Below are positions 33,282-38,075 of a DNA stretch of 64,000 nucleotides, one piece after another. The notes under the pieces are model-generated. The model did not search any database. It was not told the DNA's origin and saw nothing but the letters and a program-made list of their open reading frames with translations. Made by a program: the position numbers and the translations under genes. This DNA is from Terriglobus sp. RCC_193 (GTDB taxonomy: Bacteria; Acidobacteriota; Terriglobia; Terriglobales; Acidobacteriaceae). The stretch is taken from NCBI RefSeq assembly GCF_041355105.1, contig NZ_JBFUPK010000002.1:558001-622000 (forward strand), read 5' to 3'. Every line of letters begins with the position of its first letter. Positions within the stretch are counted from its first letter, which is position 1.

Positions 33282-33593
33282 AGGGCTGCTGGCGCTTCTG
33301 TTGCTCACGGCCATATCATCGCCAACGGCGCACCGATGTCGCTGCTGGTGATGCGCCTGTCCGTGATGCCGGAAGTGCAGGGCCATCCCATCGTGGACCA
33401 CACCGGCATGACCGGCGAATACAATTGGAAGCTGGACTGGGCACCGGAACTCAGCGCACCTGCTGCCGACGCGAGCGATCTTCCGTCTTTATTGGAAGCC
33501 CTGCAGCAGCAACTCGGCCTGCGTCTGGTGGCCACAAAGACCGCTGTCCCCGCCATTCAGGTGGATAGCATCATCCGGCCCTCACGGGACTGA
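33282..33593 (+). pseudogene. C-terminal remnant of a TIGR03435-type soil protein
   Basis: An open stretch of about 100 codons follows a stop at 33279. It reads HIIANGAPMSLLVMRLSVMPEVQGHPIVDHTGMTGEYNWKLDWAPE, then PSLLEALQQQLGLRLVATKTAVPAIQVDSIIRPS. This matches the last third of the TIGR03435 acidobacterial family: the G-x-P-VVD-x-TGLTG-x-Y-F-KL-W core and the LQEQLGLKL-x-x-x-KAPV-x-x-xVIDH tail. The family is normally about 250-400 residues, so the N-terminal two thirds are missing and no ribosome site is seen. The protein's role is unknown in any case. Confidence 0.7.
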
Positions 33594-34025: not shown

Positions 34026-34616
34026 ATGAAGACGCTGCTGCGAACGCTTGCATCTCTGCTGCTACTGGCTGGCCTTGCAGCCCTGGCAACCGTGGTGTGG
34101 GCGCGACACACAGGTGGATTCAGCGCACGAACGACGCCCTCCTTTTTGGAAACGGCCCTGGCACGATACGCCCGCAGCCTTGCCATACCTGCCTCTGCAA
34201 AGTCGCTGCCAAACCCCATTGTCGACTCACCCCAGGTGCAGCATGAAGCCATGGCGCACTACGCTGACCACTGCGCTTCCTGCCACGCCAATGATGGCTC
34301 CGGCGACACAATGTACGGCAACGGGCTCTATCCCAAACCGCCCGATCTTCGACTTGCCGCCACGCAGAATCTTAGCGATGGAGAGCTGTTTTTCATCATC
34401 CAGAACGGCGTACGGCTCACCGGAATGCCCGCCTTCGGCGCACCCAACGACGAAGGCTCAGAGTCATGGAAGCTGGTCCGTTTTCTCCGCCACCTTCCGA
34501 AGATCACGCCAACTGAGGTCGAGGAGATGAATGGCATGAATCCCAAGAGCCCGGATGAATTACAAGAAGAGAAACAGGAACAGGAATTTCTGAACGGTTC
34601 CCCCGCCGCGCGGTAA
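34026..34616 (+). CDS. Membrane-anchored or exported c-type cytochrome
   Basis: A 196-residue protein with an N-terminal hydrophobic segment (LRTLASLLLLAGLAALATVVWA) that anchors or exports it. A single heme-binding motif CASCH has Cys83, Cys86 and His87. The distal Met is likely in RLTGMPAFGAP. The fold is cytochrome c class I and carries a charged Glu-rich tail. It should pass electrons in the periplasm; the partner is unknown. GAGGAA lies upstream of ATG 34026. The stop sits inside a 20-base tandem duplication that extends into the next gene's leader. Confidence 0.88.
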   Translation: MKTLLRTLASLLLLAGLAALATVVWARHTGGFSARTTPSFLETALARYARSLAIPASAKSLPNPIVDSPQVQHEAMAHYADHCASCHANDGSGDTMYGNGLYPKPPDLRLAATQNLSDGELFFIIQNGVRLTGMPAFGAPNDEGSESWKLVRFLRHLPKITPTEVEEMNGMNPKSPDELQEEKQEQEFLNGSPAAR

Positions 34617-34644
34617 CGTTGAAAGCCGCGCAGTAACTTTGAAA
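34605..34644 (+). repeat. Two-unit 20-bp tandem repeat at a gene junction
   Basis: GCCGCGCGGTAACGTTGAAA (34605-34624) is followed directly by GCCGCGCAGTAACTTTGAAA (34625-34644), 18 of 20 identical. The first unit contains the cytochrome stop codon. Confidence 0.75.
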
Positions 34645-34671
34645 GTAGTTAGGAAAGGAAACGAACCACTC

Positions 34672-34992
34672 GTGAAACGCCTGCTTGCTGCCCCTCTCGC
34701 CCTCGTCCTCAGCGTCTCTGCCTTCGCCCACAACGGCATGGAACACATCATGGGTACAGTCACCGCCATCACCGCAACCTCCATCAACGTAAAGAATCCG
34801 AAGGATGGCAAGACCATCCCTGTCCTGACCAATGCCAGGACGATGTGGATGCGCGGCAAAGACATGGTTACCGCAAAAGACGTCCACACCGGCGACCGCG
34901 TCGTCATTCATGCCAGCAAGGTGGATGGCAAGTTCCTCGCTGCAGAGGTGGAACTGGGCAGCGCCACTGTAGCTGAATCCCACAGCCACTAA
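34672..34992 (+). CDS. Small exported protein, DUF5666-like
   Basis: A 106-residue protein with a signal peptide (MKRLLAAPLALVLSVSAFAH). The mature part starts with HNGMEHIMGTV and runs as a beta-rich OB-like domain (VTAITATSINVKNPKDGKTIPV, TGDRVVIHASKVDGKFLAAEVELG), which resembles DUF5666. It ends in SHSH. GTG 34672 is chosen because AAGGAA lies about 10 bases upstream and it opens the signal peptide; the TTG at 34639 lacks both. His and Met at both ends suggest metal contact. Neighbours (cytochrome c, DUF305, LVIVD) are consistent with a metal-handling role, but that is inferred. Confidence 0.7.
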   Translation: MKRLLAAPLALVLSVSAFAHNGMEHIMGTVTAITATSINVKNPKDGKTIPVLTNARTMWMRGKDMVTAKDVHTGDRVVIHASKVDGKFLAAEVELGSATVAESHSH

Positions 34993-35062
34993 AGCGACTG
35001 AGGACACGGTAGAGGCACGCTGCGGCGATCCGAAACCAGCGAAGCTCATACGCGCGAAAAGC

Positions 35063-35093
35063 GCGTCATCCTGAACGAAGCCGAAGGACCTGC
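35063..35093 (+). repeat. Dispersed repeat copy R6 (left arm of inverted pair)
   Basis: GCGTCATCCTGAACGAAG...GAAGGACCTGC, preceded by the hairpin ACGCGC-GAAAA-GCGCGT (35050-35066). This hairpin differs in sequence from the other copies yet keeps full pairing. Left arm of an inverted pair with R7. Confidence 0.8.
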
Positions 35094-35182
35094 TTGCTTC
35101 TCGCTCGATTACGATGCCAATGAAAGATGCGAACAAACATGCGCCAGGTTTTCGCAGAGGCATCGTAGTCCCGGACAGAAAA

Positions 35183-35225
35183 GCAGGTCCTTCGACTCCG
35201 CACTACGTGCTCCGCTCAGGATGAC
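35183..35225 (-). repeat. Dispersed repeat copy R7 (right arm of inverted pair)
   Basis: GCAGGTCCTTCGACTCCGC...CTCAGGATGAC is the reverse of the R6 unit, with an 89-base loop. The loop itself has TACGATGCC at 35109-35117 paired with GGCATCGTA at 35158-35166. Confidence 0.8.
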
Positions 35226-35249
35226 GACACAAAGGGTGATAGGAAATAC

Positions 35250-35279
35250 AAGAGCCGCGACCATAAGGCCGCGGCTCTT
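35250..35279 (-). terminator. Terminator after the LVIVD gene
   Basis: AAGAGCCGCG at 35250-35259 pairs with CGCGGCTCTT at 35270-35279. It lies 20 bases beyond the LVIVD-protein stop. Confidence 0.8.
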
Positions 35280-35298
35280 CCTTATGCGTTGAAGTGGA

Positions 35299-37320
35299 TT
35301 ACAGCGAAGCCACAGCCAGCGGTGCGCCGTCTGCGTTCTTGCGGAAGATTTCCGCCAGTCCCTGCAGGCGCTTCGCATCCGCAGGAGTCTTGGCAGTCGT
35401 GGCAGCCTTATCCAGTTCGCCTGCCATGCCCTTCAGCTTCGCGGCAGCCTTCTTGTCCGTTCCGGCCTGGTTCACCAGCGCCTTGAGGGAAGCCACCTTG
35501 TCCTTCGACAACGACTCACCGCGACCAAGCTGATCCAGATACGCCTTCGCTGTAATGTACGTGGCAGGCCAGATCACCTTCGGCTGGTCCTGAACGTTCA
35601 GCTCCTTGAAGGAGATCTGGTTCGCCGCAGCAATCTCATCCGGCGTCATGAACTCCGTGGGTGTCAGTTTCAACACATCCAGTCCGCGGGCAATCTCCGA
35701 ACCGTAGATCATGCCGTTGTACCAGTAGGTCGACCACTGACCGCCCATCGCAAACTTCTTGCCGCTGATGGGTCCACGGTCGAAGTAGGCAACCTCAAAC
35801 GGGTGCGCCGGATCGGTCCAGTCCACCAGCGAAACGCCACCCTGATACCAGCTCTGCACATGCAGCGCGCGTCCCGGAACCGGAATCTCCGAACCGTTAT
35901 GCGCCACGCAGTTTTCCTTGTCCGTTTGCGACGCCGGCATCTTGTAGTAGCTCTTCAGCGTCATCTTCTTGTCCGGGCCAATGCTGAAGATCGCGTCTGC
36001 GCCCCACTGCATCGGATCGGTTGCACGGCAACGCGGCTGACCACCGCCGCCCCACTCATCGCTGAACAGAACTGCCTTGCCATCATTGGTAAAGTTCGCC
36101 GAATGCCAGAAGGCATAGTTCGGATCGCTCACCGCGTCCAGGCGCTTGGGATGAACCACGTCCGAGATATCCAGCAGGATGCCGTTGCCCGAGCATGCAC
36201 CCGCAGCCAGCCCCACAGCCGAGTACACGGTGATGTCGTGGCAGCCGCGCGTTGCGCTGGTGCTCTGCGTACCCTCGCCGTGGTTGCCGCCCTTCCACAG
36301 GCCGTTCATGTTGCCCGTTTCAGGATCGGTGAAGATGCGAGGTGAGTTGACGACCTTCGCCAGCTCCGGATGCGCCAGCGGCACCTGGATCACAACGATG
36401 GTGAACAGCGCTGTGTTCGGATCTTCATCCGGCGCAGCACCGGAGCATCCACTAAGCTCCTTCGCATCGCGGACACCCGCAGAACCGGACACGTAGATAT
36501 ACACGTTGTCCTTATCCTTGGGATCGACAACGACCGTGTGCGTGTGCGATCCACGGCAGGTCTGTACGTCAGTGATCTGCTTCGGCTTGGTCACGTCGCT
36601 GATGTCAAAAATGCGAACGCCACGCACGCGATCTTTTTCGGCAGGCTCCGGCTTGCGATTGGCCATCATACCGGCCATTGCCTTCTGCCGCTCTTCCGCC
36701 GACAGTGTGGCCAACTGCTCGCGCTGAGCGGCCTGGGCCTTCTGCGCCTCTTCCAGGGAAGCAAAGCCCTGCACGCCGCAATCGATACGGCCGTTCGCAG
36801 CTTCCACGCTCATGAACAACAGGTTGCCGTAAACGGACACGTCGCCTTGTCCGCCGGGGCACACCATGCTGGTCACCAGCTTCGTGTGTGCCGGATCGGA
36901 GATGTCGTAGGTGTTCACGCCATAGTAGTTACCCACGAAGACGTACTTGCCCTTGAACGCAAGGTCAGAGTTTGTAGTGCCGTACGGAGCCGGAATCGCA
37001 GCGCCACGTGGTGCACCCGGTGCCGGAGGAGCAGCATTCTCCCACGCGGGAATCTTGGCTTCATCCGGCGCGAAGCCGGTGGGCTTGGCAATGGTCTGCA
37101 CCAGCTCCAGGCCCTTGGCGGCAACGCCTGCGTCATACAGACCGGCTTTCAGACCAACGCGCGGATCGCTCTCCGGTGCGCGCGGGTTCACATACACGGT
37201 TGGCGTCGGAGGAGCCGCCATCGGCTTCTCATGGTCCATCTGCGCGGACAACACCGGCAGCGAACAAGCGAACACCGCGGCAACTGCAAACGCGGCTTTG
37301 AGCGAAGAGAACTGTTTCAT
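35299..37320 (-). CDS. Secreted LVIVD-repeat beta-propeller-like protein
   Basis: A 673-residue exported protein with a signal peptide ([18 protein letters not shown]). The body has repeated propeller blades of the LVIVD type: [72 protein letters not shown]. His-rich patches occur ([24 protein letters not shown]). It ends with a Lys/Ala-rich helical tail. The role of the family is poorly known. The start overlaps the DUF305 stop by an ATGA, so the two are coupled and probably act together in the periplasm, perhaps with copper or another metal. Confidence 0.82.
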
Positions 37321-38075
37321 GGATTCACCTTTCGAAGAATGCCCTTCATAATGTCGATCTCTGCAAGCTGCGTGTTGTCCACGTCGTTCGCAAAGTCAAA
37401 TAGCTGCGGGTCCTGTCCTGCTCCCGGCTGTTGAAACAACTCCTTCACCATCAGCAATGCGCCGCCGTGGTGCTGCATCATGCCGGTCAGAAACAACCGG
37501 TCAAACTCTGCGCCATGCGCCGCGCGCAACGCCTGCATCTGCCGCGGCGTCAACATGCCGGGCATCATGGCAACGTCCAGGGGATCAGTCTTCTTCGCGC
37601 CATCGTGATTCATCGCGGAGTGATCCATGCCACTCATCTGCGAGTGGTCCATCCCGGCCATGCTGCCGTGATCCATTCCCGCCATCTGCGAATGATCCAT
37701 GCCTGCCATGTGGTCCATGCCGCCTGCCGGAGCCTCAGGATAGCCGCGCTCCGCCAGCCACTGCTTCATCCAGCGAATCTCATCGCCCTGCGACAGATCA
37801 ATCTTCGAGGACAGCGCCTTCACATCCGTGTTCGTCGCGCGAGTCTTCGCAAGCTCTGTCATCTCAATGGCCTGGCTGTGATGCATGATCATGTCCTGCA
37901 TGAACTTCACATCGGCGTCGCTCGGCCCTTTCGGCGGAGGAGCCGCGGTCACAGCAGACAACTCCTGCGTGGGTTTACCCGGAGCCCCGGGCTGCACAAT
38001 GTTCGGCGCCTGTGCGAATGCCAGCGACGCACATCCACACAGAAGTACGCCAACCACACGGGAAAGAACGGCCAT
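37317..38075 (-). CDS. DUF305 protein with Met-Asp-His metal-binding-like repeats
   Basis: A 252-residue exported protein: signal peptide to residue 21 (SLAFAQA), then two DUF305 halves with [15 protein letters not shown] (58-72) and [15 protein letters not shown] (195-209). Between them residues 118-158 carry five MDH units, the last four exactly eight residues apart (MDH at 126, 134, 142, 150) in the pattern GMDHSxMA. Such Met/His repeats bind Cu(I) or Cu(II) in copper-resistance proteins. The DUF305 fold is often found beside copper genes. ATG 38075 is used, with the signal peptide beginning [12 protein letters not shown]. Coupled to the LVIVD gene. Confidence 0.88.

Follow-up and report, generated by a model that had tools for sequence, protein, structure and literature searches.

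Conserved Pairing of a DUF305 Protein with a Secreted Seven-Bladed Propeller in Terriglobus and Other Bacteria: a Candidate Metal-Handling Unit

Introduction

What would a secreted protein of the CopM type serve, and which of its neighbors belong with it? The question is raised by a 64,000-nucleotide stretch of DNA (hereafter the window, whose coordinates are used throughout) from Terriglobus sp. RCC_193, a soil Acidobacterium (contig NZ_JBFUPK010000002.1, positions 558,001 to 622,000), in which genes for a DUF305 protein, a beta-propeller, a cytochrome c, and a small exported protein lie side by side. The closest named relatives are from Terriglobus. Proteins of the DUF305 family are widespread and are known mainly through CopM of Synechocystis, which binds Cu(I) with a KD of ~3.7e-16 M and confers protection from copper (PMC4335983). 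Our literature search found no paper mentioning DUF305 together with the LVIVD propeller repeats, and searches on choice-of-anchor B proteins and on DUF305 in Acidobacteria returned no papers. An earlier interpretation of this locus, made from the DNA alone (the sequence-only reading), emphasized an array of Met-Asp-His (MDH) units in the DUF305 protein and considered all four genes to be a single envelope cluster. Our analyses indicate that this interpretation was largely right in its details and misplaced in its weight, the finding at this locus being the partnership of the DUF305 protein with the propeller and a ring of conserved residues within the latter.

The DUF305-Propeller Pair Across Genomes

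The DUF305 gene (37317–38075, minus strand) and the propeller gene (35299–37320, minus strand) share an ATGA sequence at 37317–37320, in which the TGA stop of the first overlaps the ATG start of the second, and their translational coupling, as claimed in the sequence-only reading, is thus borne out. The same gene order is found in a broad range of other genomes. The DUF305 gene is located directly upstream of the propeller gene in 45 of the 46 named Acidobacteriota loci (the sole exception is at a contig edge) and in 16 of the 25 loci from Gemmatimonadota. Of 73 pairs, 46 have the exact ATGA (−1) overlap, frequently with an AAGGAG sequence just upstream inside the end of the DUF305 gene, and in six genomes from six genera the two proteins are fused in one reading frame. 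The genome analyzed here contains three paralogous DUF305-propeller pairs and no unpaired true DUF305 gene. In the actinomycetote Nonomuraea gerenzanensis, two tandem propeller genes are divergent from, and head-to-head with, a DUF305 gene; the association is therefore present in a third phylum in a different arrangement. Judged from gene order and sequence comparison, the DUF305 protein and the propeller thus constitute a conserved two-gene unit in at least three phyla. The distance matrices of the two partners are correlated with r = 0.91 (permutation maximum 0.21), a value to which shared phylogeny contributes a part. Among the recurring neighbors of the pair no third gene was found, only antisense open reading frames (ORFs) and genes of common families.

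Several variants of this arrangement were observed. In loci L061, L064, and L090 (e.g., L064:6034-8001) a Peptidase_M28 domain carries DUF305 fused at its C-terminus and the propeller gene follows directly; in loci L125, L126, L124, L110, and L201 the propeller gene is duplicated in tandem, so that two or three of them lie behind or next to a single DUF305 gene. A fourth DUF305 match in the present genome (C1:761394; L116:9269-9781) was rejected, as it is a DUF4142 protein with a weak DUF305 score; the two families seem to be related.

Family, Fold, and Conserved Ring of the Propeller

The second member of the pair is a secreted protein of 673 amino acids with a C-terminal four-helix tail. Its designation as an LVIVD propeller falls just short at the level of the Pfam family, where it scores 19.3 bits against a gathering score of 20.2 (PF08309), and it is also below the curated cut-off of the choice-of-anchor B family (TIGR04312, 50 bits against 100). 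LVIVD matches at E <= 0.01 are found in 30 of 54 propeller relatives, and TIGR04312 matches below E 0.001 in all 54 members of the alignment; family, fold, and profile evidence together place the protein in the LVIVD/choice-of-anchor-B superfamily, and at this level the designation stands. The description of the propeller as His-rich does not, since it has 12 His in 673 residues.

An AlphaFold2 model, built from the alignment of these 54 relatives, has seven four-stranded blades (predicted local distance difference test score, pLDDT, 87.2; predicted template modeling score, pTM, 0.88), in which the ring of blades is closed by an N-terminal strand at residues 71–77; the grouping of the strands into blades was done by hand. 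The innermost strands in this model begin at residues 117, 161, 260, 360, 405, 473, and 527, and the conserved residues D119, D160, H259/H261, H361, H406, H474, and W529 are all located −1 to +2 from these starts. Those of blades 1–6 make up a D-D-H-H-H-H ring, with one residue at the start of each innermost strand (codons of D119, D160, H259/H261, H361, H406 with E422, and H474 at 35899–36966, minus strand). H361, H406, and H474 are conserved in 100% of the family and H259/H261 in 97–98%, and eight cysteines (154, 181, 255, 292, 360, 376, 431, and 471) are likewise invariant (100%). The strand-start window takes in 28 of the 436 propeller residues, and the chance of finding all five of the five conserved histidines within it is ~1e-6 by simple arithmetic that treats positions as independent. 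The ring extends beyond the DUF305-paired group: D119, D160, H261, H361, H406, E422, and H474 align with choice-of-anchor-B proteins at 22–31% identity, and the conserved columns in common with those proteins (alignment A3) read NxD, D, H, HD, H..DE, HN, and W.

The best Foldseek match with each of two separate models is 5hrm (E 1.7e-13 and 3.2e-12), and a superfamily profile clearly matches only 5hrm/5ioj (E 5.5e-10). On the basis of both fold and profile, the propeller belongs to the same superfamily as the seven-bladed phosphotriesterase of Sphingobium sp. TCM1. In the printed alignment, His 389 and Glu 407 of 5ioj match H406 and E422 in their spacing and in where they fall on the strands. 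Glu201, His389, and Glu407 are probable metal ligands in 5ioj; they fit positions in the printed chain but are not counted as evidence here.

The DUF305 Protein and Its Hinge Insert

The DUF305 protein (252 amino acids, with a signal peptide ending at about AFA/QAP) was correctly identified in the sequence-only reading, its score for PF03713 being 135.1 bits against a cut-off of 27. It scores below the curated CopM cut-off (NF049983, 74 bits against 90). The protein has an N-terminal IVQPGAPG motif and two half-domains, each of which carries an HH motif, and its solved relatives are 3bt5, CopM (5fej), and 2qf9.

The five MDH units (37620–37718, minus strand) start at residues 120, 126, 134, 142, and 150, with spacings of 6, 8, 8, and 8, in agreement with the earlier description of five units, four of them 8 residues apart; in 20,000 composition shuffles of the protein there were never more than two. 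At the DNA level they form a 24-bp tandem array (37618–37710), which is positioned at the hinge between the DUF305 half-domains. The protein matches of relatives break off at about residues 120–140 and resume at about 168, making this the least conserved region. The hinge linker in relatives ranges from zero to 84 residues, differs in sequence, and is often Met/His-rich, and the two other DUF305 proteins of the same genome have the linkers MDMSGQPM and MSHMDHGKQ. Unlike the HH motifs, which are conserved across relatives, the array is missing in most relatives and in each of the six fusions, or is replaced by other Met/His linkers. The array was therefore rejected as a core feature, and the emphasis previously given to it is better placed on the partnership and the ring; comparison of the linkers indicates that it is a fast-changing hinge insert and a local elaboration in Terriglobus. 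A similar array was observed in a multicopper oxidase gene of a relative (L177:4481-6484), which contains a long Met/Asp/His-rich insert (GMKMEGMSGMDMSG...MDHSSMEGMDMNHMDM) of the same kind as that in the window DUF305 protein.

The Neighboring Cytochrome c-DUF5666 Pair and Other Features of the Locus

The four genes form two convergent pairs. The cytochrome c and the small exported protein noted in the sequence-only reading are both present, but they lie on the opposite strand as a separate pair, viz. a membrane-anchored class I cytochrome c with the heme motif CASCH (34026–34616, plus strand; PF13442, cytochrome CBB3, 39 bits; CxxCH) and a DUF5666 protein of the OB-fold type (34672–34992, plus strand; PF18914, 35.5 bits against a cut-off of 27). 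The latter may be weakly CusF-like, with a score of 16.6 bits against the gathering score of 27 for PF11604 (CusF_Ec). These two genes are adjacent in many relatives that have no DUF305-propeller pair nearby, and they usually follow genes for a multicopper oxidase (MCO) and an outer-membrane efflux protein (OEP) with a Met-rich N-terminus, which adjoin the pair in relatives such as L178–L181 and L184. Neither an MCO nor an OEP gene is found beside the cytochrome c gene of the window; four MCO genes are located elsewhere in this genome, and a search of it for CopB (PF05275) found none.

Only this genome and its sister G217 have the two pairs side by side, in both cases within 4.1 kb. In G233, which is a third congeneric species, the cytochrome c-DUF5666 operon is at 4.99 Mb and the DUF305-propeller pair at 1.03 Mb, 3.95 Mb apart. 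Their adjacency is therefore local to these two genomes, and the supposed single envelope cluster resolves into convergent pairs, each conserved without the other. Despite their separate conservation, both pairs point to the handling of metal at the envelope.

A terminator-like hairpin with a 13-bp stem and a T-rich tail (35250–35279, minus strand) closes the DUF305-propeller unit just after the propeller gene; it has the longest stem found, in a window where the total number of hairpins is not above chance. A promoter scan gave two matches, a number not above chance. A dispersed repeat, GTCATCCTGAGCGAAGC, occurs in nine copies with at most 2 mismatches, against 0.02 expected (9669, 22986, 35065, 35209, 38253, 38419, 40846, 40946, and 41075), and two of them, lying between the convergent pairs, point toward each other. 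A remnant of the C-terminus of a DUF3738 protein (positions 120–190 of the 190 in the profile) is located at 33336–33590; it looks like a pseudogene in this genome, because the sister genome has a longer, similar-looking ORF at the corresponding place (L129:11757-12569).

Discussion

Starting from the pairing, its translational coupling, the fusions, the fold, the conserved ring, and the homology with a metal-dependent propeller, all of them computational observations, we propose, at what we regard as even chances, that the pair consists of a secreted metallo-propeller, probably an enzyme, and a co-translated CopM-like DUF305 metal-binding partner. The proposal is made because CopM binds Cu(I) and because the copper-induced operon of Myxococcus xanthus includes a DUF305 lipoprotein flanked by a propeller-type lipoprotein on one side and the CopA ATPase on the other, together with a CBB3-type cytochrome c (PMC3707914). 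By analogy, DUF305 would load or serve the site of the propeller. The propeller would hold a metal site where its central channel opens, with ligands drawn from D119, D160, H261, H361, H406/E422, and H474, and would most likely be an enzyme related to the TCM1 phosphotriesterase. The four-helix DUF305 protein would bind the same metal through its HH and Met motifs and would dock on the propeller, delivering or holding metal (or electrons) for it; a model of the fusion protein (pTM 0.85) is compatible with such docking of the two domains. The MDH array, as a lineage-specific Met/His-rich hinge insert, would raise copper capacity.

Binding of metal by the ring, copper as that metal, and metallation of the propeller by DUF305 are inferences from these comparisons. 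As regards the earlier suggestion of metal, perhaps copper, at the envelope, metal binding and envelope location are supported by the signal peptides, the DUF305/CopM homology, the metal-type propeller, and the usual MCO-operon context of the cytochrome c-DUF5666 pair, while copper itself is plausible from the relatives.

Several observations weigh against the proposal. Six of the 25 Gemmatimonadota propellers have no adjacent DUF305 gene, and in those genomes the partner may be dispensable or located elsewhere. Part of the correlation between the partners is due to common phylogeny, and the CopM equivalog cut-off is missed (74 bits of the required 90). That the ring residues converge was read from the secondary structure of the model and not from distances, and no recurring copper gene was found near the pair in the loci compared. 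The closest propeller of solved structure has Mn, not Cu, as its metal.

The alternative that survives best, although we consider it unlikely, is that the locus is a copper-tolerance module in which the DUF305 protein, with its MDH array, serves as a sink for copper and the propeller only as a passive scaffold, while the proteins of the cytochrome c-DUF5666 pair take part with them in copper redox. The biology of CopM, the excess of MDH units over shuffled sequences, the position of the cytochrome c-DUF5666 pair at the end of the MCO-efflux operons of relatives, and the presence of all these kinds of genes in curA are consistent with such a module, but most relatives lack the array, the four genes adjoin only here and in the sister genome (with 3.95 Mb between the pairs in G233), and the catalytic-type ring of the propeller is conserved beyond the needs of a scaffold. 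It is more doubtful still that the role of DUF305 is to help fold or anchor a non-enzymatic surface protein whose metal-type residues are structural. The eight invariant cysteines suggest a disulphide-stabilized extracellular scaffold, and LVIVD repeats were first described in proteins of the cell surface (PMC2447325); however, the invariant polar residues form a ring at the mouth of the channel rather than surface patches, and the closest solved relative is a metal-dependent enzyme. A single functional cluster of four genes selected together, to which their location within 4.1 kb here and in the sister genome would speak, is very improbable and was rejected on orientation and comparative linkage, as the pairs are convergent and either is conserved without the other in many genomes.

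Returning to the secreted metallo-propeller with its DUF305 partner, a conserved and repeatedly fused partner supplies a concrete client for the DUF305 family, and the question of what its members would be metallochaperones for becomes directly testable. Similarly, for the LVIVD/choice-of-anchor-B propellers, which are named only for their repeats or anchors, the conserved ring provides a testable hypothesis of a metal enzyme. A wider and quite tentative possibility is that these propellers are a large, unrecognized superfamily of secreted metalloenzymes built around the D-D-H-H-H-H ring, with DUF305 proteins of the present kind as dedicated metallochaperones that would load metal (copper) into it and are sometimes fused to the propeller.

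Comparison with Known Systems

The MCO-OEP-cytochrome c-DUF5666 operons of related Acidobacteriota have a tail homologous to the cytochrome c and DUF5666 genes of the window, whose copy differs in having no MCO and OEP genes adjacent to it. The curA operon of M. xanthus (MXAN_3413-3421) has a DUF305 lipoprotein next to a propeller-type (PQQ_2) lipoprotein, and it also encodes a small exported protein and a cytochrome c of the CBB3 type. The likeness of its propeller is judged by the PQQ_2 annotation, and the MCO, CorSR, and CopA of curA do not adjoin the window genes.

CopM (Synechocystis sll0788; 5fej, 3bt5, 2qf9) shares with the window protein a duplicated four-helix DUF305 domain, the HH motifs, a Met-rich composition, and export. 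In contrast to CopM, the window protein is below the equivalog cut-off and its family is operon-linked or fused to a propeller; the IVQPGAPG N-terminal motif is present in most propeller-linked DUF305 proteins and the MDH hinge insert is found in Terriglobus. The phosphotriesterase (haloalkylphosphorus hydrolase) of Sphingobium sp. TCM1 (5hrm/5ioj), for which the title of the structure paper, as cited in PMC11656708, gives a binuclear metal center in a seven-bladed propeller, is of the same superfamily and has His at inner-strand starts and a Glu that closes the following strand, the arrangement of H406/E422. The two differ in that their identity is ~13%, no DUF305 partner is known for the TCM1 enzyme, and the window family has eight conserved cysteines and a C-terminal helical tail. 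The surface proteins of the LVIVD (PF08309) and choice-of-anchor B (TIGR04312) families share their blade motifs and the D-D-H-H-H-H ring with the window protein; the DUF305-paired group is distinguished from them by conserved cysteines of its own.

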